Under the pieces are notes generated by a model. The model made no database searches. It saw only the letters and a list, made by a program, of their open reading frames with translations, and was not told where the DNA came from. The translations under genes were made by a program, and so were the position numbers. Positions 7,274 through 53,011 of a DNA stretch of 64,000 bases are shown in pieces. Origin of the DNA: Phycisphaerae bacterium. Lineage in GTDB: Bacteria > Planctomycetota > Phycisphaerae > Phycisphaerales > SM1A02. The stretch is from positions 1-64,000 of the forward strand of contig PAHO01000014.1 of the NCBI GenBank assembly GCA_002705085.1. Direction: 5' to 3'. The first letter of the stretch is position 1, and every line of letters starts with the position of its first letter.

Positions 7274-7288
7274 TGGCCGGTGCTCCGA

Positions 7289-7651
7289 TCAGAACTGCAG
7301 GCCGCCCTCGCGGGCGCCTTCGGCAACGGCCTTCACACGGCCGTGGAACAGGAAGCCGCCACGGTCGAAGACCACAGCGGAGACGCCAGCTTCTTTGGCG
7401 CGGTCGGCAAGCCGACGGCCCACTTCAGAAGCGGCAGAGACGTTTCCACCAACTGCACGGTCGAGACCCTTCTCGACAGTAGAGGCGGCGGCGAGAGTAC
7501 GCCCGGTGAGGTCGTCGACGACCTGGGCGTAGATGTGTTTGCTGCTGCGGAACACCGCGAGGCGAGGCCGAGCGGCGCTGCCGCGGATGCGACGCTGGAG
7601 ACCGCGACGGCGACGGTCGCGACTGTGCTTTCGGAGCTTGATGCGATCCAT
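7289..7651 (-). CDS. rplR: 50S ribosomal protein L18
   Basis: 120 residues, normal length, with a basic N-terminus ([20 protein letters not shown]) and the conserved [18 protein letters not shown]. It binds 5S rRNA with L5 and L25. It lies 17 bp from rplF and 15 bp from rpsE. Confidence 0.97.
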
Positions 7652-7668
7652 GAGAAGCTTCCTTGGGC

Positions 7669-8223: not shown

Positions 8224-8245
8224 CGTGGGTTCCTCGACGTTCGGA

Positions 8246-8644
8246 TTACTGGACGATGGCGACGAGCTCTCCACCGACCTTCTGCTCGCGGCAGATTCGA
8301 TCAGAGAGCACACCACGACTGGTGGAGACGATGCAGATGCCCAGACCAGCCAAAGGACGTGGCAGATCAGAAGCACCGCGGTAAACGCGACGACCTGGAC
8401 GGGAGACGCGATCGATACGGGTGATGATGGGCTCGCCACGGCTGCCGTAGCGGAGCGAGATGTCGATCAAGCCCTGGCGGCCATCTTCGACAACGTCGTA
8501 AGAATCGATGTAACCCTCGTCACGCAAGACGTCACAAACCCCGCGGTTGAGCTTGTTGTTCAAGCAGCGAACCTTGGGAGCACGGTTGCGGACCGCGTTG
8601 CGTACGCGGGTGAGGAGATCGGATGTGGTGTCTTGTTGGGACAT
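8246..8644 (-). CDS. rpsH: 30S ribosomal protein S8
   Basis: 132 residues, normal length. The N-terminus DLLTRVRNAVRNRAP and the C-terminal STSRGVLSDRICREQKVGGE are canonical. S8 binds 16S rRNA helix 21 and in E. coli autoregulates the spc operon; whether it does here is not known. Confidence 0.97.
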   Translation of the reverse strand: MSQQDTTSDLLTRVRNAVRNRAPKVRCLNNKLNRGVCDVLRDEGYIDSYDVVEDGRQGLIDISLRYGSRGEPIITRIDRVSRPGRRVYRGASDLPRPLAGLGICIVSTSRGVLSDRICREQKVGGELVAIVQ

Positions 8645-8662
8645 ATCAATAAGCTCCGGAGA

Positions 8663-8848
8663 TCACCAACTGGCCTTGCGCATGCCAGGGATCATGCCCT
8701 TGAGGGCGAGTTCCCGGAGGACAATGCGGCTGACGCCAAACTTGCGATAGACCCCTCGAGCCCGACCGGTGATTTGACACCGACTTTGGCGACGGGAGGA
8801 GAACTTGGGAGGTTTGTTCATTCGGGCAAAGACGCGTTTGCTGGCCAT
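8663..8848 (-). CDS. rpsN: 30S ribosomal protein S14, short type without zinc ligands
   Basis: 61 residues, the length of the short zinc-binding S14 type, ending [11 protein letters not shown]. In that type two CxxC pairs bind zinc. Here the first pair reads CQIT and the second SRIV, so only one of four cysteines remains. The start is ATG 8848, giving [16 protein letters not shown]. It lies between rplE and rpsH. It should occupy the same site on the 30S head without a zinc ion. Confidence 0.95.
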
Positions 8849-8885
8849 GGGCATTCCTTTCCGGCGGGGCCGGATCAGCGGTTTC

Positions 8886-9488
8886 TTACTTCTTGCTGGA
8901 TTCCGGCTTGGCGAAGGGGAAGCCGAGTTCACTGAGCACGAAATGGCTCAGCTCGGGGTTAGAACGGGCAAACACAATGTTGATGTGCATGCCGTGAATA
9001 AAGGACGATTTGGTCATGTCCACTTCTGGAAACACTGCCTGTTCGGTCAAGCCGAAGGAGTACGAACCAGACGCGTCAAAGGACTTGGGGGAAACCCCAC
9101 GGAAGTCTTTGATACGGGGCATGGCGAGGTTCATGAGTCGATCCAAGAAGGACCACATGCGGTAACGACGCATGGTGACCATGAATGCGGAAGGTGCACC
9201 TTCACGAACCTTAAAGTTCGAGACGGACTTCTTGGCTTTGATCATGATGGGCTTTTGGCCGGAAATCACAGTCAAGGTGTCGGTGATGACTTCAGCGTGG
9301 TCTTGCTTGAGCTTTTGGTTCTCCAGCAAACGACCCACCCCGACGTTGACCACGGCTTTGACGATCCGTGGCTGGGACAGGGGATTGGCGAGGCCCTTCT
9401 CAGAAGCGAGTTTGGGGGCCACGTTCTCTTCGAACATCTGTTGCAGACGTGCGATTGGTGCGGCTTGGGTTGCGGTGGCTTCACTCAT
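8886..9488 (-). CDS. rplE: 50S ribosomal protein L5
   Basis: 200 residues. It carries the L5 elements [20 protein letters not shown]-like [20 protein letters not shown], and [14 protein letters not shown]. It binds 5S rRNA and contacts the 30S head. It lies 11 bp downstream of rplX. Confidence 0.97.
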
Positions 9489-9499
9489 GGGGAGGATCC

Positions 9500-9832
9500 T
9501 CAGTCACGGGCCTTCTTGAGTTCGTGCAGCACCGAGCCATCGCGGGCGGCGAGACGGACTTTGCTGCCGTCGTCCCGAGACTCAAACCGGACGCGGCTGG
9601 GTTTGCCGTCGACCACGGGGCTGACATTTGAGATATGGATGGGCGCTTCAGCACGGATCGAGCCACCCTGAGGGTTCTGCTGCGAACGTGGAATACGCTT
9701 GTTCCGAACATTGACACCGGAGACCACAACACGGTCCTCATCGGGGAGGACGCGAATGACTTCACCGACAGAGCCCTTGGCGCTGCCAGCAGTCACGATC
9801 ACGGTGTCACCCTTCACGATATGGCGTGGCAT
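9500..9832 (-). CDS. rplX: 50S ribosomal protein L24
   Basis: 110 residues. The KOW motif (KGDTVIVTAGSAKGSVGEV) lies at the N-terminus, followed by the EDRVVVSGVNVRNK segment typical of L24. The ATG at 9832 overlaps the rplN stop as TGATG, which supports translational coupling and fixes the start. Confidence 0.96.
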   Translation of the reverse strand: MPRHIVKGDTVIVTAGSAKGSVGEVIRVLPDEDRVVVSGVNVRNKRIPRSQQNPQGGSIRAEAPIHISNVSPVVDGKPSRVRFESRDDGSKVRLAARDGSVLHELKKARD

Positions 9833-10218
9833 CAGACCACCTCCGAAGCGAGGGACACGATCTTCATGTAATCCTTGAAGCGAAGCTCCCGAGCCACGGC
9901 ACCGAAGATCCGGGTGCCGACGGGGTTGCCATCTGCTTTCACGAGAACGCACGCATTCGAGTCGAAGCGGACGTATGAGCCATCATCACGACGCACGGGG
10001 TACTTGGAGCGGACCACAACTGCGGTGACCAAATCCCCGGACTTGACGTCAGAATTGGGAAGGCACTTCTTGACCGTGCACTTGATGCGATCGCCCACAC
10101 CTGCAGTCTTGCGTGTTGAACGAGCGCGGGCGGTAGAGCCCCCGTACACACCAATCACCATGACCACACGAGCGCCTGAGTTGTCGGCCACTTCGAGCCG
10201 GGATTCATTTTGGATCAT
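9832..10218 (-). CDS. rplN: 50S ribosomal protein L14
   Basis: 128 residues beginning [20 protein letters not shown], diagnostic of L14. Its C-terminus [13 protein letters not shown] is also standard. It lies at the subunit interface next to L19. It is coupled to rplX by TGATG and lies 4 bp after rpsQ. Confidence 0.97.
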
Positions 10219-10222
10219 GGCA

Positions 10223-10495
10223 TCAGGCCTTTCGCATCACGCGCACAAGCGCCCAGGTCTTGGTCTTGGAAATGGGGCGGCATTCGGCCACCTCAACGGT
10301 GTCACCCAAACGAGATTCGTTCTCCGCATCGTGGACCTGGAGGACGGTGCGTCGTCGAACGTACTTGCCGTACTTCGGGTGACGAACAGCCCACTGGACC
10401 ACCACCTTGCGGGTCTTGTCACGAGCATCGCTTTCGACGATGCCGACCCGACGCGGGGACTTCTCGGGAATCAGAACAGTGTTTTGCTTACCCAA
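10223..10495 (-). CDS. rpsQ: 30S ribosomal protein S17 (TTG start)
   Basis: 90 residues with the OB-fold core [20 protein letters not shown] and the following [10 protein letters not shown]. The only plausible start is a TTG at 10495, preceded by GAGGAG at 7-nt spacing, which decides the start. It lies between rpmC and rplN. Confidence 0.95.
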
Positions 10496-37659: not shown

Positions 37660-37766
37660 GGGAAACCTCCAAAAGCCCCATCGGCAAGCCCAGAGGCCAA
37701 CTGAATCGGAAGTTTCGCTTTGTGGGGAAGAATCCACCCCCGATCATGCCGATGATGGCATCACAG

Positions 37767-38849
37767 ATGGAACGATCCGCAGGAAACTACTCCGCTGGCC
37801 CCTCTCGCCTCCCCGACCGTGTTCGGTCCCTGGTGGCGGAGGATGTGTTGGAACTGGATGGCTCGGGTATCGGCTGCCTTGAGCACTCCCACCGGGGCAA
37901 GGCTTTTGACCGAGTGATCGCCCAAACCGAGACACTGGCCCGAAGCGTATTGAACGTCCCATCTGATTATTCAGTGCTGTTCCTGCAAGGCGGAGCCACC
38001 CAGCAGTTTGGCTTGATCCCCATGAACTTTTCGGGACAGACCCCATCTGCACAGACCAACACTGGAGTGTGGACCACCAAGGCCATCCGAGTTGCAGAAC
38101 AGTTTGGCCCCATCAACATTGTTTTCGACGGCTCCCAATCGCAATTCCGCACCTTGCCAAAGCCTAAAGATCTGCAGATCCCTGCGAATGCGTCCTTCCT
38201 TCACACCTGCGCCAACAACACTGTGATGGGAACGCAGTGGAAGGAACTTCCTCGGGCACCTGAAGGAGTCCCCCACATCTGTGACATGAGCAGTGAAATT
38301 GGCAGCCGAGTGTTGGATTGGGACACACTTGACATGGTGTACGCCGGCTGTCAGAAAAATTTAGGCGTCGCCGGCACGGTCCTGGCCATCATCAAGGATG
38401 ACCTTCTTTCTCAAAGCAACGGACCAAGCCCATTCAACTACCAAGAGCACGCTTCGGCTGGTTCACGACTGAACACGCCTCCGACGTTTGGCATTGTGGT
38501 GCTGCGTCGAATGCTGGAATGGATTCAAGAGCAGGGCGGGGTGCAAAGCATGGCACGGCGAGCCCAACAGCGTGCAGAACTGCTGTACAAAGCCATCGAG
38601 TCAACCAAGGGGTACTGGCAAGCTCATGCTTCAACCGAATGCCGAAGCCACATGAACATCACATGGCACGGACCATCGCCGGAAGCTGAATTGGAGTTTC
38701 TCGACCGGGCCGATCAACTTGGATTTTCAGGCCTCAAAGGACACCGGTCGGTTGGCGGCCTTAGGGCGTCGGTGTATAACGCGGCGGATGATGAGGCGTG
38801 CACAAAATTGGCGGAGTTGATTCAATCCAGCCCACTCGATTCCAAATAA
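37767..38849 (+). CDS. serC: Phosphoserine aminotransferase
   Basis: About 360 residues. It converts 3-phosphohydroxypyruvate and glutamate to phosphoserine with PLP. NYSAGPSRLPDRV matches the N-terminal (N/F)xSGPA motif, LFLQGGATQQFGLIPMN binds the cofactor phosphate, and the Schiff-base Lys is in YAGCQKNLGVAG. The exact start is uncertain: ATG 37767 aligns best, with in-frame ATGs at 37746-37758. Its 3' end overlaps the phosphatase gene by 28 bp. Confidence 0.93.
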   Translation: MERSAGNYSAGPSRLPDRVRSLVAEDVLELDGSGIGCLEHSHRGKAFDRVIAQTETLARSVLNVPSDYSVLFLQGGATQQFGLIPMNFSGQTPSAQTNTGVWTTKAIRVAEQFGPINIVFDGSQSQFRTLPKPKDLQIPANASFLHTCANNTVMGTQWKELPRAPEGVPHICDMSSEIGSRVLDWDTLDMVYAGCQKNLGVAGTVLAIIKDDLLSQSNGPSPFNYQEHASAGSRLNTPPTFGIVVLRRMLEWIQEQGGVQSMARRAQQRAELLYKAIESTKGYWQAHASTECRSHMNITWHGPSPEAELEFLDRADQLGFSGLKGHRSVGGLRASVYNAADDEACTKLAELIQSSPLDSK

Positions 38850-39289
38850 TCAAGCAAGGCCAAGGTCGCAGCGTCAACCAAATCCAAAACCAAATCAAAA
38901 GCCTCTCCCCCGTCGTAATAGGGGTCAGGAACTTCGGTCCTTGAAGTCTCGGGATGAAATTCCAACAAACATCGGACACGATCGGCGTCGACCCAGGACA
39001 ACTCAGTCACGTCCCGCAGATTGTCTTGATCCATCACCACGATCAAGTCGGCGTTGGCATCGGATGGGGCAATCTGTCTGGCTTGTGAATTGATTTGAAT
39101 ACCACGGGCCTGAGAGGCCGATCTCATTCGGGCATCAGCCGGCTCGCCAGCATGCCAGCCTCCGGTGCCCGCAGAATCAATACGAAAGGAATGGTCCAGG
39201 CCACGTTCCCGAACGTGATGGCGAAAGTAAGCCTCCGCCGCCGGAGAGCGACAGATGTTTCCCAAACACACAAAAAGGATATTTGGCAT
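38822..39289 (-). CDS. Low-molecular-weight protein tyrosine phosphatase
   Basis: 155 residues. The P-loop CLGNICRS (Cys-X5-Arg-Ser) at the N-terminus and the acid residue in VPDPYYDG are complete, so it should be active. In capsule operons such Wzb/Etp-type enzymes dephosphorylate the BY-kinase Wzc. It is the last gene of the operon that starts at 51865, and its start codon overlaps the previous stop by TGATG. Confidence 0.93.
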   Translation of the reverse strand: MPNILFVCLGNICRSPAAEAYFRHHVRERGLDHSFRIDSAGTGGWHAGEPADARMRSASQARGIQINSQARQIAPSDANADLIVVMDQDNLRDVTELSWVDADRVRCLLEFHPETSRTEVPDPYYDGGEAFDLVLDLVDAATLALLDYLESSGLD

Positions 39290-40527
39290 CAGTCAACCGG
39301 TTGGGAAAAAGCGCGACGTCGGGCCACTTTGATGGCATAAGTCACAATCGAGCAGAAGACCACCAGTGCCCCGGCGTAGACAACTCGACCCCGCAGCTCG
39401 GTCGAAACATCAAGCCAGGCCAACATCACACCCAAGGTGGCGAAAAAAGCAGCGATGGCGTACAGCGTGAAGACCGCGGGCTTGACGCCGCCCAGTGCCC
39501 GCTTCAACTGGTGATGGATGTGGTCAGAGTCCGGGTCGCTCATACGTTTCCCGGACAACCTCCTACGAACGATCGCCATGAATGTGTCCAAGATCGGCAC
39601 CGTGAACACCATCAGTCCCGCCAAGACCACATGGGTTTGCCCACGGTCGCCCAGCATGAGAATGATGGAAACCACCAGATAGCCCAACATCAAACTGCCC
39701 GCGTCGCCAAGGAAGATGTTCGCGGGATTGAAATTGTGAGGCAGGAAACCAAGGATCGCGCCAAGTCCAACGACAGCAAGGACAATCCTGGCGACCGCCA
39801 GAGACTGCGGTGCTTCCACGGAGTCACCACCCACTTCGGGGAGCAACATCATGCCGATCAAGGTCAAGCCCACCAGAGCGATCCCGGTGACCCCAGACAG
39901 CAAACCATCCAGGCCATCGATCAAATTGGCGGCATTGCAACCCCCAAGTACCATGACCGCGACCAGACCCGTACCAATGATGTTGTACACGTGGGAACTT
40001 AAAACCCAGTCCACCCCTGGGAAAAAGAACAGTTGGGTATCGCCGGCACCCAGCAAAGGACTCAATACACCTGCAGCCACCTGAACACCAACATTCTCAA
40101 CTGCTAATGCTGCGGCAGCCATCATCTGACCGGCAATTTTGAGTCTCGGATCCCAACCAAACATGTCATCACCGACCCCGGTAATGAAAATCACAATCAA
40201 GCCAAAGACCACCGAAATGGGAACTGGACGGTACTGGTCAAGGGGTGCCTCAACGAATGCCGCGGAAAGAACACCTGCCATGATGCCGATGAACACCGCG
40301 AGGCCCCCCAAATAGGCAATGGGCTCATTATGAATTTTTCGGCCACCGGGCTGGTCGACCACCCCCAAAGCAATGGCGAGCTTGCGAACCAACGGCGTGA
40401 CCAAAAGGGTCATGATGAAGGCCACAAAAAAGGATGGGGCAAACGCATTCAACAATTCAATGATGTCGACTGGGTCAACGGTGCCGGCAATGCCCTGATC
40501 TTCGATCGTAGGTTCAACTTGATTCAC
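39289..40527 (-). CDS. WecA/TagO-like undecaprenyl-phosphate glycosyl-1-phosphate transferase
   Basis: 412 residues with about 11 membrane segments. Signatures of the polyprenyl-phosphate HexNAc-1-P transferase family are DQPGGRKIHNEPIAYLGG, NLIDGLDGLLSGVTG (catalytic Asp), NPANIFLGDAGSLMLGY and the HIHHQL loop. It probably primes polysaccharide synthesis by loading the first sugar phosphate on undecaprenyl phosphate. It is coupled to both neighbours (ATGA, TGATG). Confidence 0.92.
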   Translation of the reverse strand: MNQVEPTIEDQGIAGTVDPVDIIELLNAFAPSFFVAFIMTLLVTPLVRKLAIALGVVDQPGGRKIHNEPIAYLGGLAVFIGIMAGVLSAAFVEAPLDQYRPVPISVVFGLIVIFITGVGDDMFGWDPRLKIAGQMMAAAALAVENVGVQVAAGVLSPLLGAGDTQLFFFPGVDWVLSSHVYNIIGTGLVAVMVLGGCNAANLIDGLDGLLSGVTGIALVGLTLIGMMLLPEVGGDSVEAPQSLAVARIVLAVVGLGAILGFLPHNFNPANIFLGDAGSLMLGYLVVSIILMLGDRGQTHVVLAGLMVFTVPILDTFMAIVRRRLSGKRMSDPDSDHIHHQLKRALGGVKPAVFTLYAIAAFFATLGVMLAWLDVSTELRGRVVYAGALVVFCSIVTYAIKVARRRAFSQPVD

Positions 40528-41489
40528 AATCTGGCCTCCGTGCGAATGGCTTCAGCGAGATCCCGGATCGTCTCAGCGAGGGGACGTGTGGGTGGCAAGG
40601 AAGCCAATGTACGGACTCGAGTGAGATCCGGAATTCGCTCCTGAAGATCTTGAAAGCCATGACCCCATACCTCGTCGTATGGCGTGACTTTGATCGATGA
40701 CTTTGATTCAAGGACGTCACGGACCAATTCAGCCAACTCCAAAATAGAGATTGGTTGATCGTGGCCAAGATTCACCGGCATCCCACGGGCCTCAACCGTG
40801 CGGAGGAGCTGGGGAAGAGCACCAACCACGTCTCGAACATCGGCAAAGCATCGTTTTTGGCGTCCATCACCGTGAACTTCAATCGTGGATCCGTCCAAGG
40901 CCGCTCGCACAAATCTCGGCAGGACCATGCCCCACTCGCCACGTTGCCTCGGGCCAACGGTATTGAAGAATCGGATCACAACCGAGGGCAACTGTTGTTC
41001 AAGAGCAAAGGCCAAGTGCTCATCAACCGCTTTACTGTGTGCATAGGACCAACGCGCGACGGTGGTTGGTCCGTAGACCGAATCATCGGTTTCACGGAAA
41101 GGCCGTCCCTGTCCCACTCCATACACCTCGCTGGTGCTGGCCAGAACGGTCGGGGTTGAAGACTTCGCCAAGAACCGAAGCAAACCAGCGGTCTCAACCA
41201 CATTGTTGATGATGGTTCCGAATGGGTCTTCGACAACTTTTCGCACGCCAACTGAGGCAGCGAGGTGATACGCCTCATGAAAGGACTCAACTGGTTCATT
41301 GGCCAGCCACTGATCGACCGTGGCTGGAACCAGTTCTACGTCAGGATGGTCAGGGACTTGATGCTGCAGACCTGTGGAGAGATCGTCAACAACAAGGATC
41401 GAATGACCTTGGTCCAACAGGTGCTCGACGAGATGGGATCCAATGAATCCAGCACCTCCGGTGACAAGGACTCGGGACACGTTGCTCAA
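40524..41489 (-). CDS. NAD-dependent nucleotide-sugar epimerase/dehydratase
   Basis: 321 residues, extended SDR. The Rossmann motif GGAGFIGSHLVEHL at the N-terminus and catalytic YAHSK (YxxxK) are present. RFFNTVGPRQRGEWGMVLPR and the C-terminal half resemble UDP-glucuronate decarboxylase and GDP-mannose/UDP-glucose epimerase-type enzymes. The exact sugar cannot be told. It lies between the Wzc-like and WecA-like genes, so it likely supplies a sugar for the polymer. Confidence 0.9.
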   Translation of the reverse strand: MSNVSRVLVTGGAGFIGSHLVEHLLDQGHSILVVDDLSTGLQHQVPDHPDVELVPATVDQWLANEPVESFHEAYHLAASVGVRKVVEDPFGTIINNVVETAGLLRFLAKSSTPTVLASTSEVYGVGQGRPFRETDDSVYGPTTVARWSYAHSKAVDEHLAFALEQQLPSVVIRFFNTVGPRQRGEWGMVLPRFVRAALDGSTIEVHGDGRQKRCFADVRDVVGALPQLLRTVEARGMPVNLGHDQPISILELAELVRDVLESKSSIKVTPYDEVWGHGFQDLQERIPDLTRVRTLASLPPTRPLAETIRDLAEAIRTEARL

Positions 41490-43663
41490 GCCACCTCTGA
41501 ATAGTCCCGCATGATGCGGAAATTCTTCTTGAAGTATCCACCGGACTCGGTGCGGGCTTGGTTGAGAATCACGCCGAAGACGTCGGTGCCAGCTTGCTTG
41601 ACCGCGTTGGCGAGGCGAATCAGAAGACCTCGGTCATCATGTCCGGCACGTACCACCAAAACCGCGCCATCAGCTTTGGATGCGATAGTTACAGCGTCAC
41701 CCGCCGCCAAGGCAGGCGGTGCGTCAAACAGAACCAAATCCCACTGTTCACGAGCATGGCTGAGCAGCTCCTCCATCATGGGAGAACCAAGCCGATCGAC
41801 CACCCTCGAGCTCTCGGTACCCGCGCCCACCAAATCGAAGCCCGCTTCAGTTCGGATGGCAACACTCGAAAGGTCGCCGGCTCCCCCCAGCACATCACCC
41901 AAACCACTCACGCCATCAGCCAGACCAAGTTGCTGCGCTAGGCCGGGGCGACGGAAGTCTCCATCAACCACCAAAACCTTCCGCCCCGCCGCGGCGGCCG
42001 AGGCCGCGATGTTCAAAACAGTTCCGGTGCATCCGGTGTCGGGAGAACACGGGAAGAAGACGACCACTCGGCGTTCGGTAGGAGCACATTTACGAGCCAA
42101 TTGGGTCCAAGTCTGCCGCAGAGACTCCGCGACCACACTCTGGCCAAATTCCAATACCGCCGACTCAAAAACAGTGCAGCCATCGGGATCTTCCTCAAGA
42201 TGAGGAACGACTCCAAGCGTGCGCAACCCAGGAACCAAGGAAAGATCCTTAACACCGTTGATTCTCTGATCAGTAAATTCACGCAAGAACACGATTGCCG
42301 CCACCAGTCCGGTGACCAGAAGGAAGCCAGCGGGAATCACCAACTCAGGCTTTGGGAACGCCTTTTCTCGAGGAAGCGTCGCGGTTCGCGCGAGTGAGAC
42401 CAGCCGAGCGTCGTCGCGTGACCGAAACAGCTTCAAATCGCGAACAAGTTGATCTTCACCATCGCGTTTGCGCTCGAGGTAATCCCGTCGATTTTTAATG
42501 TTCTCAATTCGGCTGAGGTCCGCAGCCTGAGATTGCAGTGATTGAACCTTCTCGGCATATTCATCTTGCAAAGACTGGGTGGCCGCTTGCGTCTGCTCAA
42601 GTATCCGCATCGATTGACGAATATCAGCCCGCAAGTTTCGAAGCACAATCTCTTCACGACGCTCATTCAACGCCGCTTCCGCGGAGTCGAGTCTCTGCTC
42701 AGCCCTCTGAATGATGGGGCTGTATGGGTCCAAGTACTGCAACCGCAAAAAGCTCAAATCCCTTTTTGCCGATTCCACCGTCTGAACATGAATCGATACC
42801 GATGGGTCGACTTCGGCCGTCCGAATATCATCTTCGTCATAGGACAAAGTGCCATCCAACTTCTGCTGTGACTGGGCCACTTGGGTTTGCAAACTTTCCG
42901 CGGCTTGACGATTGGTGTAGATCCGATCCGTCAACTGCTGGGCAGCAATCAGCTCCGGGCTGTAACGCGGGTCCTCCAACGAGGAGACCCCATTGGCGGT
43001 AATGAAGTTTTCCAATTCACCACTGATGTCATCAATCTCGCGCTTCGTGTCAGCAAACTCCGTGCTAAAAAGCCGGTCAATTGATTTCGCTCGGCTCTCT
43101 TCTAAACTCTGGGTGCTTTCGAGATAAGCATCCGAAAGAGCGGCCACGATGGCCTGCGCATCTTCACGGGTTGCGGTAGCAAAGCTGATCCGGAATAGTG
43201 CCGTCTTTGGGACCGGGGATCGGACCAAATCCTCTTCGAGTTCATCAACGGCCTCTTCGATCCGAGGCCCGTCCTCATCAACGTACTGGCTGGTAAACCA
43301 CTCTGATCTTTGAACCGCACGAGTGCGAACAGCCGCTTTGAGCACTTCACGATCCATCAATCTCGACAATTCGGTGTTTGCTCGTCGTTCGATATCATCG
43401 TCATCCAACTCTTTGGCCGCACCAATTTCGGTAGCGTCCTGAAGGCCGGAACGAATTTCAAACAAGGCTTCGGAACGGTATGCGGGGAAGAAGATCGACA
43501 GAGCGACATAGGAAACGCCACCGACGCCTACACCAAGAAGTCCTGAGAAGACCAGCAGAAGCAAATGCTTCCTGAGGATGCGAATCGGATCGACAGAAAC
43601 GCCCGCTTCTCCCGAAGAAGGTGCGGCAAGCAGTTCCTCAGACCTTTGTTCTGTCGATTGCAT
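41486..43663 (-). CDS. Wzc-like polysaccharide co-polymerase with degenerate BY-kinase domain
   Basis: 725 residues. Wzz-type chain-length domain with TM1 near residues 33-57 (HLLLLVFSGLLGVGVGGVSY), a long periplasmic coiled coil, and TM2 near 455-475. The cytoplasmic P-loop domain (~510-725) has Walker A' VLVVDGDFRRP (Asp567) and Walker B LVLFDAPP (Asp647). The Walker A loop reads SPDTGCTGT, with Cys545 where the BY-kinase Lys should be. The tail has two Tyr (710, 721), not a Tyr cluster. It likely still controls polymer length and export, but kinase activity is doubtful. Confidence 0.9.
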   Translation of the reverse strand: MQSTEQRSEELLAAPSSGEAGVSVDPIRILRKHLLLLVFSGLLGVGVGGVSYVALSIFFPAYRSEALFEIRSGLQDATEIGAAKELDDDDIERRANTELSRLMDREVLKAAVRTRAVQRSEWFTSQYVDEDGPRIEEAVDELEEDLVRSPVPKTALFRISFATATREDAQAIVAALSDAYLESTQSLEESRAKSIDRLFSTEFADTKREIDDISGELENFITANGVSSLEDPRYSPELIAAQQLTDRIYTNRQAAESLQTQVAQSQQKLDGTLSYDEDDIRTAEVDPSVSIHVQTVESAKRDLSFLRLQYLDPYSPIIQRAEQRLDSAEAALNERREEIVLRNLRADIRQSMRILEQTQAATQSLQDEYAEKVQSLQSQAADLSRIENIKNRRDYLERKRDGEDQLVRDLKLFRSRDDARLVSLARTATLPREKAFPKPELVIPAGFLLVTGLVAAIVFLREFTDQRINGVKDLSLVPGLRTLGVVPHLEEDPDGCTVFESAVLEFGQSVVAESLRQTWTQLARKCAPTERRVVVFFPCSPDTGCTGTVLNIAASAAAAGRKVLVVDGDFRRPGLAQQLGLADGVSGLGDVLGGAGDLSSVAIRTEAGFDLVGAGTESSRVVDRLGSPMMEELLSHAREQWDLVLFDAPPALAAGDAVTIASKADGAVLVVRAGHDDRGLLIRLANAVKQAGTDVFGVILNQARTESGGYFKKNFRIMRDYSEVA

Positions 43664-43702
43664 ACTTGTCTCCTATCGGCCCAATGGGGCAATGGACTCG
43701 CA

Positions 43703-46700
43703 TTACGGGGCCAAAATTGACTCCACTTCCTCGACCAGCGCCTCAAAATCATCTCCTTGAGCGTCATCACGCGCCTTGGCATCTGACAATGCCAATCGTG
43801 CCCGATCTAGGTCACCGGATCGAGCTAAGGCAAGGGCATAACGAGCTTGAGTTCCGGCCCCACCCCCCCGACGCACCGATTGGGCGAGAGACTTGATGGC
43901 TGATTCCGCATCCCCCAGCGCCAACTGGACGGTTCCCAGGGTGTCCAAGATCTGAGGATTCACCGGGTTTGCCGCAACCGCGGCCTGGGCCAATGGAAGG
44001 GCCCGCTCATGCTCACCAAGCTTGTCGGAGAGGACATAGGCAATGTTGTTGGTGGTAAGTGGCTGCTCAGGATCCAAAGAGAGACTCTTCTCCCATGCGG
44101 AAATCGCTTCATTCGGAAGATCAGCAGCAATCGCGATGTTGCCCGCCACGAGCCAGACTTCAGCCGCTTCATCTTCGTCGGCTTCGGTGGCCATCACAGC
44201 GCTTTTCTTCGCATCGGCAACCGCCCCCGAGTAATCCTTGAGGTTCAGTTTCACCCTCGCAATGCCGTTCAACAGCGGCCAAGAAACAACTCCGCCGTTG
44301 GCCTCTTCCGCGAATCGCTTGACATCATCAAGTCGATCATCGCCAAAGTACGCAATGAGCTGAACGGGGAATCGAGAAAGGATGAGTTGGGGCGCCCCGT
44401 TGGCAATTTGACGCTGGTACGCAGAAAAACATTCACGCAACACCGAACGAGACTCCTGCTCACGCCCGATGTTCAACAACGCGGTAGCCCGCAACGACAA
44501 CAGGTCGGGATTGTCTTGAACCCACGCTTTCTCCTTGGCCGTCTGCTGCACCACCAACCTCCAGTCGGGATTGGGCACGGAAACTTCTGCCGCCATGCGT
44601 CGGGCAAACGTCACGTCTCTTGGATCCTGATCAAAAGCGGTCCGGAAATAGTCCCGAGCAGTGATTTCCTCACCTTGAATACCCATCAAGAGTTCCCCGG
44701 CACGGGCGTACCACTGTGCACTGATCTTGCCCGGGGGCAAAGCTCGCCCGCCATCACCGGCAATCGCGGCCGCGGACACTCGATCTCCAAGCGTTAGATA
44801 CTCGCGAAGAATGCGCAAACGCAGTTTGCTGTTTGTGGGATCTTCCTCGAGTTGAGCCGCCAGCGTTCGGATGCCTTCTAGGACATCACCTCCCGCGTTC
44901 AAGAGGGTGAACCTCCCTTCGGCAACGGCCGGCGCTTGTGGCGCGAGAGCTTCGGCTTCTGTTAAAGCCCTTGACGCAGAATCATAAGCCTCCTTATCAC
45001 CGGTTCGACGGAATCGTTCGGTGTAGATCGAAGCCTCAAGAAGACGCGGACCAATATCGCGCGGCAAAAACTGTTTGGCAGTGGACAACTCTTGAAGGGC
45101 AGATCTCTCCTCGACAGATCCATCCTCATTGCTGGTGAACTTCTCCGAGGCATACGCCACATAAATCATGGATTGGATCAACGCCCGGGCCGCCGTGTCT
45201 CGATCGTCCTCAGGCGCCGGGAGTTGATCAAAGATCGTTTGCGCTTCAGAAGCACGACCCGACCGCGCGAGACATTCACTGTACTGCTCAAAGAAAGCAT
45301 GCCGGGGAATGTCTGTCGCCGTCAATCCAGGACCAGAAGGGTCGGGACGGAAGACGCTAACGAACTGAACTTCTCCTTCGTCCGGCAATTTGGTGATCAA
45401 CGACTCATACTGATCTGCAGCATCCGAGAATTGATTTTGGCTCATGCAGATCGAAGCGGCCGCAAACGCGGATGAAATCGTATCCACACCATCCAGCACT
45501 TCGACTGCCGCAGTGGCTTGACCAAGGTCAGCGTACAACTGGGCCAACATGAGGTTGGCCAATAAGGATGAATCATCATCTTCGGCCAATTCCACCCTCT
45601 CCCGCAAAGCCGCGACCGCCGACTGCGGACGTCCCTGCTGCCTGAAGATTTCGGCACGGTAAGCCGTGATCAAGAGAGGGTTAAATTCAGAGTCAACCGA
45701 CTGAAGAGCCTCCTCAAGCAGTGCATCAGACTGTTCCCACCAAGCCTGACGGTTGGACTCGATCAACGAGGCCTGGCGATCCGCCGGGAGTTGGCTGAAT
45801 CGATTTTGGTCGTAAGAAAAGTCTGGACTCAGGAGTCGAATACTTTCTACGGTGGGCTCGGAGACGCCAAGCAAGAGGGCCAACTCAACAACGTTGCGAA
45901 TATCCTCCGGAGCCGAGGCATAGCGAGATGATCGCGCTTGCAAGACTTCAACAAGACCACCACTTTCCAGAGCAAGGTTCAGCCAAGCTTCTCTCAATGC
46001 CATATTTGCTGGCGACATTCGTGAAGCTGACTGGTAGACCTCTTTCGCCTGTTGACTCTTGCCCAACTGAACCAACAATGCCCCATATCCTTGCGCGATG
46101 GTGATGCTGTTGGGCTGAATTTCCCAAGCCTCGACGTAGTGTCTTTCAGCATTCACGTAATCACCAAGTTGAGCCTCTGTCTGAGCCAATTGCGCCAACA
46201 AACGACCGTCTTTTGGGAGATCTTCGGAGGCAGCCAAGAAGGCGTCTCGAGCGACGGACCATTCGCCCTTCGCCACCGCCAATCTGCCCCGATATGTACG
46301 ACCGGATGCCTGATCCATATCCAAACTCTCGGCGATTCGTGCTGCTTCGCCCGCGGCAGGCCAGTCTTGGGCACGCAAAGCCCGGGTAAAAACGTATTCC
46401 ACCCAATCCGGAGCTTGGGAGTATTGCTGGTCCGCCTCAACTTCACGCTGATTGATCTCATCTTCAATGCGGGCAACCAGTTCCAAATCACCAATTCGGG
46501 CAGCCGTTGCTTTGAGTGTTGCGAGATCCCGCAAAATGGCCACCGCGGTGGTCCCAGGATCAATCCCGCGGTCATCCGAATGGAACAAGACGATGGCTTC
46601 AATCGGGTCAGAAACGCTGGTCGCGACCTGAAGTTCGCGTATGGCAACCTCAGCTTTCGGATTGGAAGGCTCAAAGTCATCAAGAATTTCGAGGGCGAGG

Positions 46701-48634
46701 GATTTCTGATCCTCGGCAATCAGCATGCGCACATACGAAACGGTTACGCCAAGCTCTTGGGGCTCCCGATCGTAAATTGCTTTCATCTCGCGAAGTGCAT
46801 CCTCACGTTCACCGGCGTCATACCGTTTCAGCAATGCCTGGACCTCGATTGCCAGTGGTGAACTTGTACTTCGGCCCGCCAGTGCGTTTTGAGCCATTTC
46901 AATGGCTTGCGATGACCCCTCGGAGTCGATGCCCGCATCCAACATGGCCTGCCCCAGCAAAATCACTTGCTCCCACTCCCGACTCAGCACCAAAATCTGC
47001 AATTTGTTTCGCAGCAACGTTGGCTCGTTGGGAACAGATTCCAATGCTTCGTCCAGCTGAGTAAGTGCCAAGCCCAACTGGTCCAGTTCTCGGTTCACTT
47101 GAACTGAATACAACAGCAGTCGAATATCGGTTGGAGCCCCAGCGAGACTCTTTCTCTGCAGAACATCATCCAGCAACTTGGCGGCCGTCCGAAGACTCCG
47201 CTCGCCGCCCTCGGCATACGCTCGCTTCGCTTGAATTTCAAGCAAGACAAGGTTGTTCTCGGGGTTAGGGACTAAAGCAAGCGCTTCCTCATAGATCTCA
47301 TCAATGGCGGCGATGGCACTTTCACGTTCGAGTTGGCCACGCACCAGCTGATCCATAGTCAACCCTGTACGAATGCCGTACATGGACAACCTAAGGTCAT
47401 CGAAGCTGCCCGCGTAGAGGCCAACCTGAGGCCGAGGTCTCTGGCCAAACGCTTCAGACAACTTGAGGGCAAGCGCCCGATCCTCTTCATCCGCACTTTG
47501 GCTCAGTAACTGAACCCGACGGTGCTCCACGACATAATCGGAGTAGGCCGTCTTCTGAAGTTCTGCTAAAGCAGATGCATACCGGGAAAAAAGATCTGGC
47601 TCACTAAGTTTTTCCAAGGCAGTGAAGCAACCCGTGACATCAAAAATCTCAACCATTCGCGACAATTCTTTAAGCGCAATGTCACGAAGTGGGCCATCTT
47701 CCACTGCCACCTCGGGGACAATTTCAAGCACCCGCTTGTTGTTCAACGCATGGGCAGCTTCAAGTCGACTGACAATCCACAATGCCCGGGCATGACCCAC
47801 CGAATCTTCTGGGAGGGGTCGCACGAACTCGTCGCCCACCAAGGCTCTTGCCTGCCCCAATAGAGAGCCCTCAGATCCCGGAGGTGGCAGGTCAATCCTT
47901 GAACTCTGATCGAACAACCTCCGCAGGGTTTGTGCATACTCAAGGATGAAGCTTCGATCATTGTCCAACACGGCATCTTCCAGGCGAATGGTGTAACCGC
48001 GCAAGGCGATACCGAAATCAATGACCTCAGGGTTGTCATCCAAGCGCCGCTGCAAAAGATCGAAGGCCTCTTCGCGATCACGGTCGCGCAACTCGGCCCA
48101 GCGGATTCGATTCAAACGGCTGGCCGCAATCCATCGATCCGAAAAGGCCTCATTTTCCAAACTGCGAACACCAGCAGCATCCGCCGTATCTTCCACCATC
48201 TCCATCAAAGACGCCGAACGGACATCCATTGCATCGGCATAGACGGCACGCACAAGAATCCTTGATCGCTCGGGGAGGTCGGGATGGTTTTCGGCCCCCC
48301 ATTTCAGCGAACCAATCCAAGCGTTGTAAAAGTCATTTGCTTCCACCGTGGAGTTTGGGGAAGTCAACAGAATGACCCGCTTGAGAGAGGTCAGGTATTT
48401 CAGATCCCGAGGCTCCTTGCCCAAGGCTCGCCCATAATTTCGCCGTGCCTCCCGGTAATTGTCAGCCTGCTCAAACTCAACAGCTTTCGCATAAATCGAA
48501 GAGGCGCTGCGTAGAACCAAGAAGTAATACGCGCCGCCAAGGCCGCCAACCAGAGCCATGCCCAATATTGAGAGCACCAACAGTAATTTGACATTGAGCG
48601 CGCCAATTCGGCTTGGGGAAGAATTCTGTCGCAT
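43703..48634 (-). CDS. Giant TPR repeat protein of the exosortase/polysaccharide operon
   Basis: 1643 residues. One membrane segment near residues 15-38 (LLLVLSILGMALVGGLGGAY) anchors the protein, and almost all the rest is built of TPR-type helical pairs, for example NSITIAQGYGALLVQLGKSQ and NPQILDTLGTVQLALGDAES. In exosortase loci, large TPR proteins (PrsT-like) are thought to scaffold polysaccharide assembly in the periplasm. The C-terminus keeps the most canonical TPRs. The start at 48634 overlaps the EpsI gene stop. Confidence 0.9.
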   Translation of the reverse strand: MRQNSSPSRIGALNVKLLLVLSILGMALVGGLGGAYYFLVLRSASSIYAKAVEFEQADNYREARRNYGRALGKEPRDLKYLTSLKRVILLTSPNSTVEANDFYNAWIGSLKWGAENHPDLPERSRILVRAVYADAMDVRSASLMEMVEDTADAAGVRSLENEAFSDRWIAASRLNRIRWAELRDRDREEAFDLLQRRLDDNPEVIDFGIALRGYTIRLEDAVLDNDRSFILEYAQTLRRLFDQSSRIDLPPPGSEGSLLGQARALVGDEFVRPLPEDSVGHARALWIVSRLEAAHALNNKRVLEIVPEVAVEDGPLRDIALKELSRMVEIFDVTGCFTALEKLSEPDLFSRYASALAELQKTAYSDYVVEHRRVQLLSQSADEEDRALALKLSEAFGQRPRPQVGLYAGSFDDLRLSMYGIRTGLTMDQLVRGQLERESAIAAIDEIYEEALALVPNPENNLVLLEIQAKRAYAEGGERSLRTAAKLLDDVLQRKSLAGAPTDIRLLLYSVQVNRELDQLGLALTQLDEALESVPNEPTLLRNKLQILVLSREWEQVILLGQAMLDAGIDSEGSSQAIEMAQNALAGRSTSSPLAIEVQALLKRYDAGEREDALREMKAIYDREPQELGVTVSYVRMLIAEDQKSLALEILDDFEPSNPKAEVAIRELQVATSVSDPIEAIVLFHSDDRGIDPGTTAVAILRDLATLKATAARIGDLELVARIEDEINQREVEADQQYSQAPDWVEYVFTRALRAQDWPAAGEAARIAESLDMDQASGRTYRGRLAVAKGEWSVARDAFLAASEDLPKDGRLLAQLAQTEAQLGDYVNAERHYVEAWEIQPNSITIAQGYGALLVQLGKSQQAKEVYQSASRMSPANMALREAWLNLALESGGLVEVLQARSSRYASAPEDIRNVVELALLLGVSEPTVESIRLLSPDFSYDQNRFSQLPADRQASLIESNRQAWWEQSDALLEEALQSVDSEFNPLLITAYRAEIFRQQGRPQSAVAALRERVELAEDDDSSLLANLMLAQLYADLGQATAAVEVLDGVDTISSAFAAASICMSQNQFSDAADQYESLITKLPDEGEVQFVSVFRPDPSGPGLTATDIPRHAFFEQYSECLARSGRASEAQTIFDQLPAPEDDRDTAARALIQSMIYVAYASEKFTSNEDGSVEERSALQELSTAKQFLPRDIGPRLLEASIYTERFRRTGDKEAYDSASRALTEAEALAPQAPAVAEGRFTLLNAGGDVLEGIRTLAAQLEEDPTNSKLRLRILREYLTLGDRVSAAAIAGDGGRALPPGKISAQWYARAGELLMGIQGEEITARDYFRTAFDQDPRDVTFARRMAAEVSVPNPDWRLVVQQTAKEKAWVQDNPDLLSLRATALLNIGREQESRSVLRECFSAYQRQIANGAPQLILSRFPVQLIAYFGDDRLDDVKRFAEEANGGVVSWPLLNGIARVKLNLKDYSGAVADAKKSAVMATEADEDEAAEVWLVAGNIAIAADLPNEAISAWEKSLSLDPEQPLTTNNIAYVLSDKLGEHERALPLAQAAVAANPVNPQILDTLGTVQLALGDAESAIKSLAQSVRRGGGAGTQARYALALARSGDLDRARLALSDAKARDDAQGDDFEALVEEVESILAP

Positions 48635-49452
48635 TAGGAAGACTCCAAGTCAGCGGAAAGTGATCGCCAATCTGGCAAACTCCGCATCAAATGAGGCAAA
48701 AGAAGTTCGAGGAATTCTCGACTTGCATCAACAAAATCTGAACGATCTTGGCGACGCTTGAGTTGGGTTACCAATTGGACCTTGCAGTAATAGGCCATCT
48801 TTTGCGAGGGATCAAAAGCAAGTCTTTTGACGGACTCTGGGGTGGCGGCGAACTTGCCATTGGCCACAAAAAAGTACCCCCCCCAAAGCACGGTGCCCGG
48901 CTGGTCCGATCGCACAAAACTGCTCGTCCGCAAAGCCAAATCACTGGTCGGCACGAAGACTTCTGCAACACGACCCGTCAACGGATCTTCGATACCAACT
49001 TCAAACCAAAGATCATCAATTTTCTTCCAGCCTGATTGTTGGATCCCTAAGGGCAAATTTTCAGGAAGTTGCTCCAGATCAAAGCCCCCAGTTGCCACCA
49101 GGCAACGGTCGGGGACATGCGGAACCGCATCAATCATCCCGGTGTAATACGCCAAATGAAGTTGTAAAAACCGGCCATCCGCATGTTCGTACGATCGGGT
49201 GAGAAACTGATCGGTACCGAGTTCCTCAATGAATTCTGCGGACAACCTTTGGTCATCACCAACGGCTTCCCATGAGCCAAGACTTCGGGGCACATCGGCC
49301 AAACCACGCTGAAGCGGGACAGGCTCCTTTTTGAGGTGGATGTTCAACGCATCCATGGCGAAGCCCATTCCCACCCGAGAAAGTCCAATAAGCACCACCA
49401 CGACCAGCATGGCCCGACGTTGCGAGGGATGCAAAGTGAATCGAAGATTCAT
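48634..49452 (-). CDS. Exosortase-associated EpsI family protein
   Basis: 272 residues. One N-terminal membrane segment (AMLVVVVLIGLSRVGMGFAM) precedes the extracytoplasmic EpsI domain. HLAYYTGMIDAVPHVPDRCL, with the conserved Cys, and GGYFFVANGKFAATPESVKR are typical of the planctomycete form. EpsI accompanies exosortases in polysaccharide loci; its biochemical job is not established. Its start overlaps the exosortase stop by 4 bp. Confidence 0.9.
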   Translation of the reverse strand: MNLRFTLHPSQRRAMLVVVVLIGLSRVGMGFAMDALNIHLKKEPVPLQRGLADVPRSLGSWEAVGDDQRLSAEFIEELGTDQFLTRSYEHADGRFLQLHLAYYTGMIDAVPHVPDRCLVATGGFDLEQLPENLPLGIQQSGWKKIDDLWFEVGIEDPLTGRVAEVFVPTSDLALRTSSFVRSDQPGTVLWGGYFFVANGKFAATPESVKRLAFDPSQKMAYYCKVQLVTQLKRRQDRSDFVDASREFLELLLPHLMRSLPDWRSLSADLESS

Positions 49453-50387
49453 GAAACGCCCCCCGGAACAAAATCATCCTCAGATTGTTCAATCACCAGA
49501 CGCTTCAGTATCTCAGACACACCAAGGAAAAGCATCCATGCCGGCACCAAGAGGAAGACACCAACCATCGTGTGCACTTCGCCAGTGCCTAGGTCTGGAT
49601 CGATGAGACTCAACAATCCAAGTACCAACACGCGGACGATGTTGACAACCAAGGCAACTGGGAAGGCAGAGGCAATTAAGAAGATTCTTTGCCACCATCG
49701 CCGAAAGGAAGCAAAAGCCATGGTGGTCCCAATGGCCAAGAACGCCATCAACATGCGCATCCCACTGCAAGCCTCTGCCACGTTCAAAGGGATAACCGTG
49801 GATGACATGTCATCGTTCATTACGTAGATGCGAATCACGTTGCCTTCAAGCTCAGCATCAAGGGTGGCCAACACCAACAACAAGTGGGCCCCAAATGCTG
49901 TGATTGCTTGCATGGGGTGAGTGACGTAGGACATCAATCGTTCGGAAATGGTTTGGCCAAAGACGAGCAAAAACAGCATTGGAAAAATCAGATGTCGAAT
50001 GGCCCTTGGGCCCAACAACAACATCCCCAATCCACCCAAGCTGCACACCACTCCGAAGCCACGAAGATTGTGATGGTGTAATACTGAGGGACCAAAAACA
50101 CACATCGCGTACCACATCAACCCAAAGGCCAAAGGCAACAGCCCCCACCAGCAAATACGAGCACCCGCAGACTCAATCTGTGGCCATGCCCGCCTCAGGA
50201 ACCACCCTGCGATCAGAGGAGCAACCAAGGTGTGCCCCCAGTCATCTGTCTCCTGGAAGGCCCACTGGAACTGGCGGAAAAGAAAATCCCAGTAATACGC
50301 CACAAATGAAACGAGCAGCAAACCAACCACCACAGCATCCCCAACCAATGGGGAGGAGGGTTTGGGTTGGTCAGAAGTGGCTTTCAT
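49449..50387 (-). CDS. Exosortase (transmembrane cysteine transpeptidase)
   Basis: 312 residues with about eight membrane segments. The catalytic triad is readable: Cys207 in VAEACSGMRML, Arg252 in VVNIVRVLV and His272 in TGEVHTMVG. These enzymes cut PEP-CTERM-type C-terminal signals and attach proteins to the envelope or polysaccharide. No gene in this window encodes an obvious PEP-CTERM substrate. It lies between the Wza-like and EpsI genes. Confidence 0.93.
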   Translation of the reverse strand: MKATSDQPKPSSPLVGDAVVVGLLLVSFVAYYWDFLFRQFQWAFQETDDWGHTLVAPLIAGWFLRRAWPQIESAGARICWWGLLPLAFGLMWYAMCVFGPSVLHHHNLRGFGVVCSLGGLGMLLLGPRAIRHLIFPMLFLLVFGQTISERLMSYVTHPMQAITAFGAHLLLVLATLDAELEGNVIRIYVMNDDMSSTVIPLNVAEACSGMRMLMAFLAIGTTMAFASFRRWWQRIFLIASAFPVALVVNIVRVLVLGLLSLIDPDLGTGEVHTMVGVFLLVPAWMLFLGVSEILKRLVIEQSEDDFVPGGVS

Positions 50388-50476
50388 GGATCAGGAGACC
50401 GCCATTTAGGAGCGTACGCTCATGAATCGGCAAGGGTTTCCCTCAAATCCAGCCCGAATGCGGAAGCAAGAGACAT

Positions 50477-51865
50477 TTATCGAGGACCAGCAAAGGGTGG
50501 TGCGCCAAAAACGTCATTCCCGAAGTTCCGATCCAATCGGAGACTGAAGCCGTAATTTGTTCGAAAACCCTCACGAAGGATGAACATTGGACGATTCCAA
50601 AAACCTGTCCCCACAATGATCTGATCGCTGGGACGGAGCACCACATCAGGCTCTGTCCCATTTCGAATGCCCGCGAGGTCGAGGCGAATAATGGCTTCCC
50701 GATCTTGACCAACGATGCGACGCAAGTCGACTTTGTCGGGTTCAGCTAAGGGTCCAAGTCCTCCCGCCGAAGTAATGGCACGAGAGAGGGTGAAATAGGG
50801 CTCATTGACCGGAATACCGTACGGACCAGGCCGGGCGATCTCGCCGTCAATGTAGACGTTGCCATCGCCAACCCGCTCAACCAAGATGGAGTCTCCCGGG
50901 CGGATCACGATGTCCAGATTGCTGTCCCCTCGACGGAGCTGTTGCAAGGGAATGCGAAGGACTCGATCAATGAACACGGGGGCATCGCCCTCGCCCATTT
51001 CAGACCAATCGTCTGCCCCTCCCCGCTTTTGCCATGTCCCGGAAGCCACATCCCATAGCCAAGGAGATTCGGGGAGGCCTTCTGGTTCTTGAACTTCAGG
51101 AAGGCCACCGTCCATCAATGCATCGACATCAATAAACGTATCTTCGCTTGCCCCAATCGATGCCCCTGAACTTCCCTCGAGTCGATCCAACAGACCATCC
51201 AAATCCAAGGGAGACTGACTGTCATCAATCTCTGGAGTCTCAAGTGGCCCCTCCAATCGAACGCGACGGCGTACGACTGCATATTGCGCGGTGTCCAGAA
51301 TCCCCCCCGCTTGGCTCAGGGCTTCGAGAAGACGAAGATCAGACCGCAACAGTGGATACACATTGGGCTGCGAGATGAACCCGTTGATGGTGAATCGGAA
51401 GCCAGTGCGCTGCACCAAAGCGGCATCGACCTGTGGCGCGCCCATCAGTCGACCGTAAGCTGATCGAATCGATGGGCTCAATTCCTCGGGAAGCAACCCT
51501 TCAACCTTGACCAACCCAATTTCGGGGAGTTGAACAAAGCCAGACTGATCAACCACACGATCAACGGTGACCGGCTGGCCAGGCTGATAGACATCAAAGG
51601 CGGTGACCGTGATCACATCACCGGGAACGATGCGGTAGGCGCTGAAATCATTTTCGAGGAGATCTTCTCGAGTGGGCGTCTCGCCGACGATCTGCTCCCC
51701 GACCTCGATGGCATTGATCCTCCTCAGGATGGGCAGAGTTGTGGGCTGATGCTCCCATCGCCCAGTCACCGTCGGATCGACAAACGAATCGGTCTGGCAG
51801 CCAGCTGCAAGAGACAGGGCCAATCCCATCCAAATCGCTGATTTCGTCGTAAGTCGGAAAAACAC
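50477..51865 (-). CDS. Wza-like polysaccharide export outer-membrane lipoprotein
   Basis: 462 residues from a GTG. The lipobox LSLAAGC indicates a lipoprotein. A poly_export domain (YRIVPGDVITVTAFDVYQPG) and SLBB-type segments (FTINGFISQPNVYPL and VYIDGEIARPGPYGIP) follow. An acidic insert of ~100 residues lies between the SLBB segments. It forms the outer-membrane channel for the polymer and is the first gene of the operon. GATAAT lies 5 nt before the GTG. Confidence 0.92.
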   Translation of the reverse strand: MFFRLTTKSAIWMGLALSLAAGCQTDSFVDPTVTGRWEHQPTTLPILRRINAIEVGEQIVGETPTREDLLENDFSAYRIVPGDVITVTAFDVYQPGQPVTVDRVVDQSGFVQLPEIGLVKVEGLLPEELSPSIRSAYGRLMGAPQVDAALVQRTGFRFTINGFISQPNVYPLLRSDLRLLEALSQAGGILDTAQYAVVRRRVRLEGPLETPEIDDSQSPLDLDGLLDRLEGSSGASIGASEDTFIDVDALMDGGLPEVQEPEGLPESPWLWDVASGTWQKRGGADDWSEMGEGDAPVFIDRVLRIPLQQLRRGDSNLDIVIRPGDSILVERVGDGNVYIDGEIARPGPYGIPVNEPYFTLSRAITSAGGLGPLAEPDKVDLRRIVGQDREAIIRLDLAGIRNGTEPDVVLRPSDQIIVGTGFWNRPMFILREGFRTNYGFSLRLDRNFGNDVFGAPPFAGPR

Positions 51866-51928: not shown

Positions 51929-53011
51929 GTGAGCGAATCCGCCCAAGATCGAACATTGGCCCGTCACCCCAGACCCCTTGGCGGAGATACCGCCAAAGAT
52001 CGACGAGGCGTCCAGGTCCCTCTGAGCGGCATGGTGCTCAACAACAACGAGCCCCAACAACTGCATTTAGGCCGAAAGCCAGACTGGCTTCGAGCCCGAG
52101 TGCCTGGGGGGCCAGGGTACGAGCGTCTTCGTGAAATCGTGGATACCCACGGCCTGCATACGGTCTGCAAAGAAGCCGCCTGCCCAAACATGGGGGAATG
52201 CTGGAATCGCGGGACCGCAACCATCATGATTCTGGGTGATACCTGCACTCGTGCCTGCGGATTCTGCAATGTGAAAACCGGCCGCCCCGCCGAAGTCGAC
52301 AAAGATGAACCCCGCCGGGTCGCCGAGTCCATCGCTCTGATGGGGCTGGGCCATGTGGTCATCACCTGTGTCGATCGGGATGATTTGCCCGACGGCGGGG
52401 CCGAAATATGGGCCGAAACGATCGAACGAGTGCATGAAGCGTGCCCCAATACGAGTGTCGAATGCCTCATTGGTGACCACCAAGGGCACCATGATGAACT
52501 CGACACCATCATCGCTGCAAAACCCGAGATCTTGAGCCACAACATGGAAACGGTCCGCCGCATGCATCCCGCCGTACGTCCGCAGGCCCGCTATGACAGA
52601 TCGATCGATGTGCTACAGCACATCCAGGAATCAGGACTGGTCACCAAAACCGGGATCATGGTTGGCATTGGCGAACGGGACGAAGAAGTCTTTGAGTTGA
52701 TGCAGGACCTTCGTGACGCGGCCGACATCCATATTTTGACCATTGGTCAATACCTGCAACCCACCCGAAACCATTTGCCAATTGACCGCTGGGTCACTCC
52801 TGAGGCATTTGACCAGTACCGAGAACGCGGACTGAACCTCGGCTTCTCGGTGGTCGAATCAGGGCCGCTGGTTCGATCGAGTTACCACGCCGAAGAACAA
52901 GCCGCCAAACTTTCCCCGTCCCAGCGTGCGGTCAAAGAAGGCATGGAACGATTGCTTGGGCAAGCCAAGAGCGACAAGCCGAACTCCTCAGCGAAAAGTC
53001 CTGAACAATAA
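51929..53011 (+). CDS. lipA: Lipoyl synthase
   Basis: Up to 360 residues. It is a radical-SAM enzyme that inserts two sulfurs into octanoyl groups on lipoyl domains. The auxiliary cluster motif CKEAACPNMGEC, the radical-SAM motif CTRACGFCNV and the C-terminal RSSYHA serine ligand are all present. GTG 51929 fits the upstream -10 hexamer; an in-frame ATG at 52031 (MVLNNNEPQQ) would give 326 residues, nearer the usual size. lipB is not adjacent. Confidence 0.95.
   Translation: MSESAQDRTLARHPRPLGGDTAKDRRGVQVPLSGMVLNNNEPQQLHLGRKPDWLRARVPGGPGYERLREIVDTHGLHTVCKEAACPNMGECWNRGTATIMILGDTCTRACGFCNVKTGRPAEVDKDEPRRVAESIALMGLGHVVITCVDRDDLPDGGAEIWAETIERVHEACPNTSVECLIGDHQGHHDELDTIIAAKPEILSHNMETVRRMHPAVRPQARYDRSIDVLQHIQESGLVTKTGIMVGIGERDEEVFELMQDLRDAADIHILTIGQYLQPTRNHLPIDRWVTPEAFDQYRERGLNLGFSVVESGPLVRSSYHAEEQAAKLSPSQRAVKEGMERLLGQAKSDKPNSSAKSPEQ

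Follow-up and report, generated by a model that had tools for sequence, protein, structure and literature searches.

The XrtA/EpsH locus for PEP-CTERM protein sorting and exopolysaccharide (EPS) production (Haft et al., 2006; PMC1569441) combines an exosortase with conserved Cys, Arg and His residues, an adjacent or fused EpsI, a PrsT-like TPR lipoprotein and exporter and chain-length genes with many small secreted proteins that carry a C-terminal tag, and exosortase genes are found among EPS genes in other phyla as well (PMC1569441). In the Wzc/Wzb/Wza system of Escherichia coli group 1, a Wza exporter is accompanied by a single-chain PCP-2a with a BY-kinase fold and by a low-molecular-weight (LMW) phosphatase gene, and mutation of K540 in Wzc abolishes phosphorylation (PMC8285477). 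BY pseudokinases, that is kinase folds on or partnering a co-polymerase without the residues for phosphorylation, have precedents in EcpK of Myxococcus, in HfsB of Caulobacter and among the fused PCP-2 cases listed by Cuthbertson et al. (cited in PMC12004946). The open-licence papers found on planctomycete exosortases do not describe the locus analysed here, an exosortase/EPS operon that is conserved across the Phycisphaerae, with a probable pseudokinase in one order and an added phosphatase in one clade.

Exporter, exosortase, EpsI, PrsT-like protein, co-polymerase and phosphatase stand side by side in the window, by which we mean the whole 64,000-nucleotide stretch of DNA analysed, on contig C28 of a marine Phycisphaerae MAG (assembly of 1.98 Mb in 53 contigs, 90% complete). 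Eight minus-strand open reading frames extend from 51865 to 38822, all of them present where a preliminary description had placed them and with names that agree with the Pfam and NCBIfam identities of the products. In the direction of transcription (coordinates refer to the minus strand unless indicated), a Wza-like outer-membrane polysaccharide exporter with Poly_export and SLBB domains and a lipobox-like LAAGC (50477..51865) is followed by an exosortase of the 8TM_EpsH family (312 aa; 49449..50387), EpsI (DUF3485) with one N-terminal TM segment (48634..49452), a giant PrsT-like TPR protein of 1,643 aa with an N-terminal TM anchor (43703..48634; TPR in Pfam), a Wzc-like polysaccharide co-polymerase (41486..43663), an NAD-dependent sugar epimerase/dehydratase (40524..41489; Epimerase in Pfam), a WecA-like polyprenyl-phosphate sugar-1-phosphate transferase (39289..40527; Glycos_transf_4 in Pfam) and a LMW protein-tyrosine phosphatase (38822..39289; LMWPc in Pfam). 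As had been described, most neighbours overlap by 1–4 bp, namely at five of the seven junctions, with short gaps at the remaining two (+89, −4, −1, +39, −4, −4 and −1 bp in transcription order). The cluster is flanked by the opposite-strand genes lipA (51929–53011, plus strand) and serC (37722–38849, plus strand), the latter overlapping the end of the phosphatase gene by 28 bp. A promoter scan returned fewer sigma-70-like sites than were present in shuffles. The eight genes plausibly form one transcript. Purifying selection is strong on all genes of the cluster, the kinase domain included.

The exosortase, a single copy in the genome, lies above the family cut-offs of TIGR02602 (114 bits, cut-off 105.55) and PF09721 (Exosortase_EpsH; 146.5 bits, cut-off 25.7). 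Its Cys/Arg/His triad (span 49572..49769), the conservation of which the preliminary description had singled out as critical, consists of C207 (49767–49769), R252 (49632–49634) and H272 (49572–49574) and is invariant in 59 of 59 sequences; a sequence search gave no convincing solved relative. EpsI (DUF3485/EpsI in Pfam, 40 bits) possesses eight residues invariant in a 34-sequence alignment, K42, Y102, Y103, D108, P111, H112, P114 and C117, and within its motif DxVPHxPxxC (D108–C117; 49102..49131) D, P, H, P and C are invariant throughout the 34 sequences. The core YYxxxxDxVPHxPxxC is equally seen to be invariant together with Lys42 and Lys224. The pattern of invariant residues suggests an active site with a putative catalytic Cys-His site. 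The AF2 model of EpsI is good (pLDDT 92.2); a Foldseek search returned nothing below E 0.001, the best VIA-align hit (MOG1, Z 7.5) is at a level common for unrelated models, and no solved fold stands out.

The locus departs from the XrtA/EpsH system in several aspects. The exosortase remains below the cut-off of the XrtA subtype model TIGR03109 (106.6 bits, cut-off 208) and the TPR protein below that of the PrsT model TIGR02917 (91.5 versus 312.2 bits), and no PrsK histidine kinase over cut-off was found in the 90% complete genome (best 74.6 bits versus 300). Matches to PrsT, EpsI and the chain-length/kinase families are all under their NCBIfam cut-offs. Furthermore, the PrsT-like protein is TM-anchored and 1,643 aa long whereas it is a lipoprotein in the XrtA system, the tag reads PAPG and not PEP, a WecA-like gene is included in the cluster and the gene order is fixed across the Phycisphaerae.

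The distribution of the locus reaches through the class. The exosortase of the window finds a match in 290 of the 298 class genomes. The loci compared number 139, 59 around the best exosortase in relatives and 80 named loci found from six closer exosortase sequences; the two sets are not fully independent, as some named loci come from assemblies already included under a different handle. Wza, exosortase and Wzc are encoded on one strand in 122 of the 139; in 15 of the other 17 the fetched stretch contains no Wzc, mostly since it ends early. Where contigs are long enough, the order Wza-Xrt-EpsI-PrsT-Wzc recurs in the class, which excludes a chance arrangement and answers the call of the preliminary description for a comparison of operon order across Phycisphaerae: the core order is conserved. 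Around this core, EpsI is encoded either on its own or as a fusion with the exosortase (about 40 long open reading frames among the loci), the TPR protein measures about 1,430–1,760 aa where detected complete, the tail genes for epimerase, WecA-like transferase and phosphatase vary between loci, and lipA adjoins divergently in 55 of 139. The closest named relatives by exosortase identity are the Phycisphaerae MAGs MED-G178 (86%) and MED835 (79%). Two entries, L143 and L207, are titled Pirellulaceae and Chitinophaga pinensis and nevertheless hold the Phycisphaerae locus, with the L143 exosortase 87% identical to that of the window; their titles or bins are probably wrong.

The preliminary description had found no PEP-CTERM-type substrate in the window and proposed a genome-wide search for proteins with C-terminal sorting signals; both the absence and the location elsewhere hold. 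TIGR02595 matches 13 proteins in the genome, 12 of which on reading end in genuine C-terminal tags. From TIGR02595-found tags a lineage profile, A1, was built; it contains its own source sequences, which makes E-values in this genome optimistic, and detects here 13 strong and three weak proteins, ending like VPAPGALALLGLAGLGRRRR, none of them on C28. The tag consensus is (V/I)PAPGALALLGLAGLGRRRR; motif, hydrophobic stretch and basic end of a cognate tag are all present, and the spacing from PxP to the basic run is 12–14 residues in this genome and 13–14 in almost every relative sampled. Two relatives have a tagged substrate gene upstream of the operon near lipA (L068:1463-2281; L074:1043-1957). 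A1 finds matches in 52 of the order's 61 genomes, with up to 44 per genome, and G066, the only genome of the order in which no exosortase was detected, is also without an A1 match, which argues for the reading as an EPS-sorting system. Five genomes of the order (G060, G143, G149, G205 and G217) possess the exosortase without an A1 match at the threshold used, the profile being tuned to the genome of the window.

Equally, polymerase, flippase and further glycosyltransferases had been reported as absent from the window, and no Wzx, Wzy_C or Glycos_transf_1 match is indeed present on C28. Elsewhere in the genome there are eight Glycos_transf_1 proteins, a second WecA-like gene on contig C43 and Wzy_C proteins on C37 and C43, the one on C37 having its best NCBIfam match, far short of the cut-off, in the exosortase-A-associated O-glycosylation ligase family. 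On C43 the second WecA-like gene immediately precedes that of a Wzy_C-like membrane protein of 636 aa (L135, G000:C43:1-15000, 4551–7597). A locus on C22 (L136, G000:C22:56000-72000, 911–10372) encodes CysD and CysN/C-like sulfate activation, a glycosyltransferase, two sulfotransferases and two unassigned multi-TM proteins, and is possibly a sulfated-polysaccharide locus and a source of the missing EPS steps. Together with the Glycos_transf_1 proteins, the genes on C22, C37 and C43 could supply most of these steps. The search for Wzx and Wzy advised by the preliminary description thus succeeded in part: Wzy- or ligase-like genes and glycosyltransferases were recovered, and a clear flippase was not, with no match to PF01943 in the genome. 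One partial match to PF13440 that passes the cut-off, close to where contig C8 ends, and a weakly SpoVB-like 568-aa multi-TM protein on C22 are tentative flippase candidates. Overall, genome-wide searches support a cluster for exosortase, EPS priming and EPS export with the other steps and the substrates encoded elsewhere.

The Wzc-like protein (AAA_31 in Pfam, 28.9 bits) is assigned by NCBIfam eps_transp_fam (101.9 bits, below cut-off) and by PDB matches to VpsO, BceF and Wzc; a BY-kinase fold joined to a periplasmic co-polymerase domain with two TM segments corresponds to a Wzc-type PCP-2a. Its P-loop PDTGCTG (42023..42043) aligns to PGEGKTT of VpsO and carries Cys545 (42029–42031) at the position of the catalytic Walker-A lysine. 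The order's 101 rows have T here in 61 cases, A in 18, V in 11, C in 5, S in 5 and G in 1, with K or R in none, whereas the 18 rows from other members of the class show K in 11, R in 6 and T in 1. An alignment error was rejected on the invariance of P541 and G544 in the order; equally invariant there are Thr/Ser at 546, Arg571, Asp647, Glu513 and Arg516. The P-loop Gly and Thr/Ser, the A' Arg and the Walker B Asp are conserved despite the loss, and the order alignment contains no order-specific Lys in place of the lost one. On a tree of 119 rows (113 different), calculated with the P-loop columns left out, K/R has to change twice, once on the branch separating the order (SH-aLRT 100) and once, by its state, at L101; a single loss for the order as a whole is thereby inferred. 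L101 is the row outside the order with Thr, the six other substituted outside rows having Arg, and its loss is apparently independent. Compared with two close relatives, in both of which the Cys is retained, omega of the kinase domain is about 0.04, with dS near saturation. The AF2 model (mean pLDDT 85) resembles BY-kinase domains with TMt 0.82–0.93 and has a helical C-terminus, as reported for EcpK. Within the C-terminal GGY...Y tail (41501..41542), Tyr721 is present in 119 of 119 rows; most tails of the order contain 2–3 Tyr and form no Tyr-rich cluster. No BY-kinase in the genome reaches the family cut-off, and of three weaker matches one reads as ParA-like and another as Mrp-like.

The phosphatase itself looks intact, with the CX5R(S/T) signature as CLGNICRS (39245..39268) and the DP general-acid loop as DPYYDG, both kept in two close relatives. 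A homologue is present in 44 of 50 genomes searched. Considering strong matches only (E below 1e-25, duplicates removed, positions compared with the exosortase), the closest homologue sits next to the locus in 10 of 34 genomes and away from it in the other 24, so that linkage characterises a clade and the phosphatase is a clade-specific addition, a facultative tail gene. A relation of linkage to a Tyr-richer Wzc tail was considered and dropped, as tails in linked loci show no such trend. The tyrosine phosphatase of its own that the preliminary description gave to the operon is not supported as a defining trait, as the gene is linked in a sub-clade only and its presumed partner kinase is devoid of the Walker-A lysine throughout the order.

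We regard it as probable that the locus represents the Phycisphaerae form of the exosortase/PEP-CTERM/EPS system, with the Wzc kinase domain a pseudokinase in the order. The PrsT, EpsI and chain-length/kinase matches under their cut-offs, the five exosortase-bearing genomes of the order without an A1 match and the lack of a clear flippase weigh against it. For the kinase domain alone, a BY pseudokinase is most likely the economical reading, as the Walker-A lysine is absent in the order while the fold is kept; the conserved Walker B, A' Arg and terminal Tyr count against it, as a pure scaffold need not keep them. As in EcpK and HfsB, the kinase fold would work without phosphorylation, although here the Walker-A lysine alone is consistently lost in the order, Walker B (unlike in EcpK) and the terminal Tyr remain, and the fold is part of an exosortase operon across the whole order. 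Canonical Wzc/Wzb regulation, with a lysine-independently active kinase whose terminal Tyr is cycled against the adjacent phosphatase, would account for this retained tyrosine in every row, for the conserved nucleotide-site residues, for purifying selection on the domain and for the intact phosphatase active site. We consider it unlikely in the face of a Lys missing without order-specific substitute in every row of the order, of the effect of the K540 mutation on Wzc (PMC8285477), of a tail that has 2–3 Tyr and is helical in the model, and of a phosphatase unlinked in most relatives; the locus differs from E. coli Wzc/Wzb/Wza in the absent lysine, the tail that is not Tyr-rich and the linkage restricted to a sub-clade. 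That the domain belongs to a lysine-free BY-kinase class fixed at the base of the order, phosphorylating the terminal Tyr by a different chemistry that the operon phosphatase reverses, is quite unlikely too. In view of the lost catalytic Lys, the domain might also be decaying after loss of function, its present state being meaningless, a very improbable explanation that is disfavoured by strong purifying selection and the retained fold, with motifs that have stayed conserved across the 101 rows since a single old loss.

At the level of the whole locus, EPS export and protein sorting might be mere neighbours that share locus and regulation and work independently. No known polymer-to-protein joining enzyme was identified in the cluster, most glycosyltransferases and the Wzy-like genes are encoded away from it, and five exosortase-positive genomes of the order lack a tag match at the threshold used, all of which fits such independence. 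Yet the class preserves the interleaved arrangement Wza-Xrt-EpsI-PrsT-Wzc, which in the window includes overlaps between neighbouring genes, and exosortases occur among EPS genes in other phyla (PMC1569441), so that independent operation seems improbable. In the preferred reading, an EPS-sorting system with a pseudokinase, the WecA-like enzyme would prime a lipid-linked repeat unit, glycosyltransferases, flippase and polymerase from other loci would complete it, and the Wzc-like protein would control polymerisation and couple it to the Wza-like exporter. Its pseudokinase domain may steer the co-polymerase by binding and not by phosphorylation; it retains its fold, its terminal Tyr and the nucleotide site apart from the lysine. 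Alongside this pathway, at least 13 secreted proteins with the PAPG-helix-RRRR tag would be processed by the single exosortase together with EpsI and the membrane-anchored TPR protein.

The function of exosortases and their link to polysaccharide export are poorly tested, and this class-wide locus, here accompanied by a single exosortase and a small and uniform set of substrates, offers a clean place for such tests. Equally, the order-wide loss of the lysine amid conserved surroundings provides a natural parallel to the Wzc K540M laboratory mutant, which makes testable the need of phosphorylation for co-polymerase cycling and the role of a phosphatase beside a presumed dead kinase.
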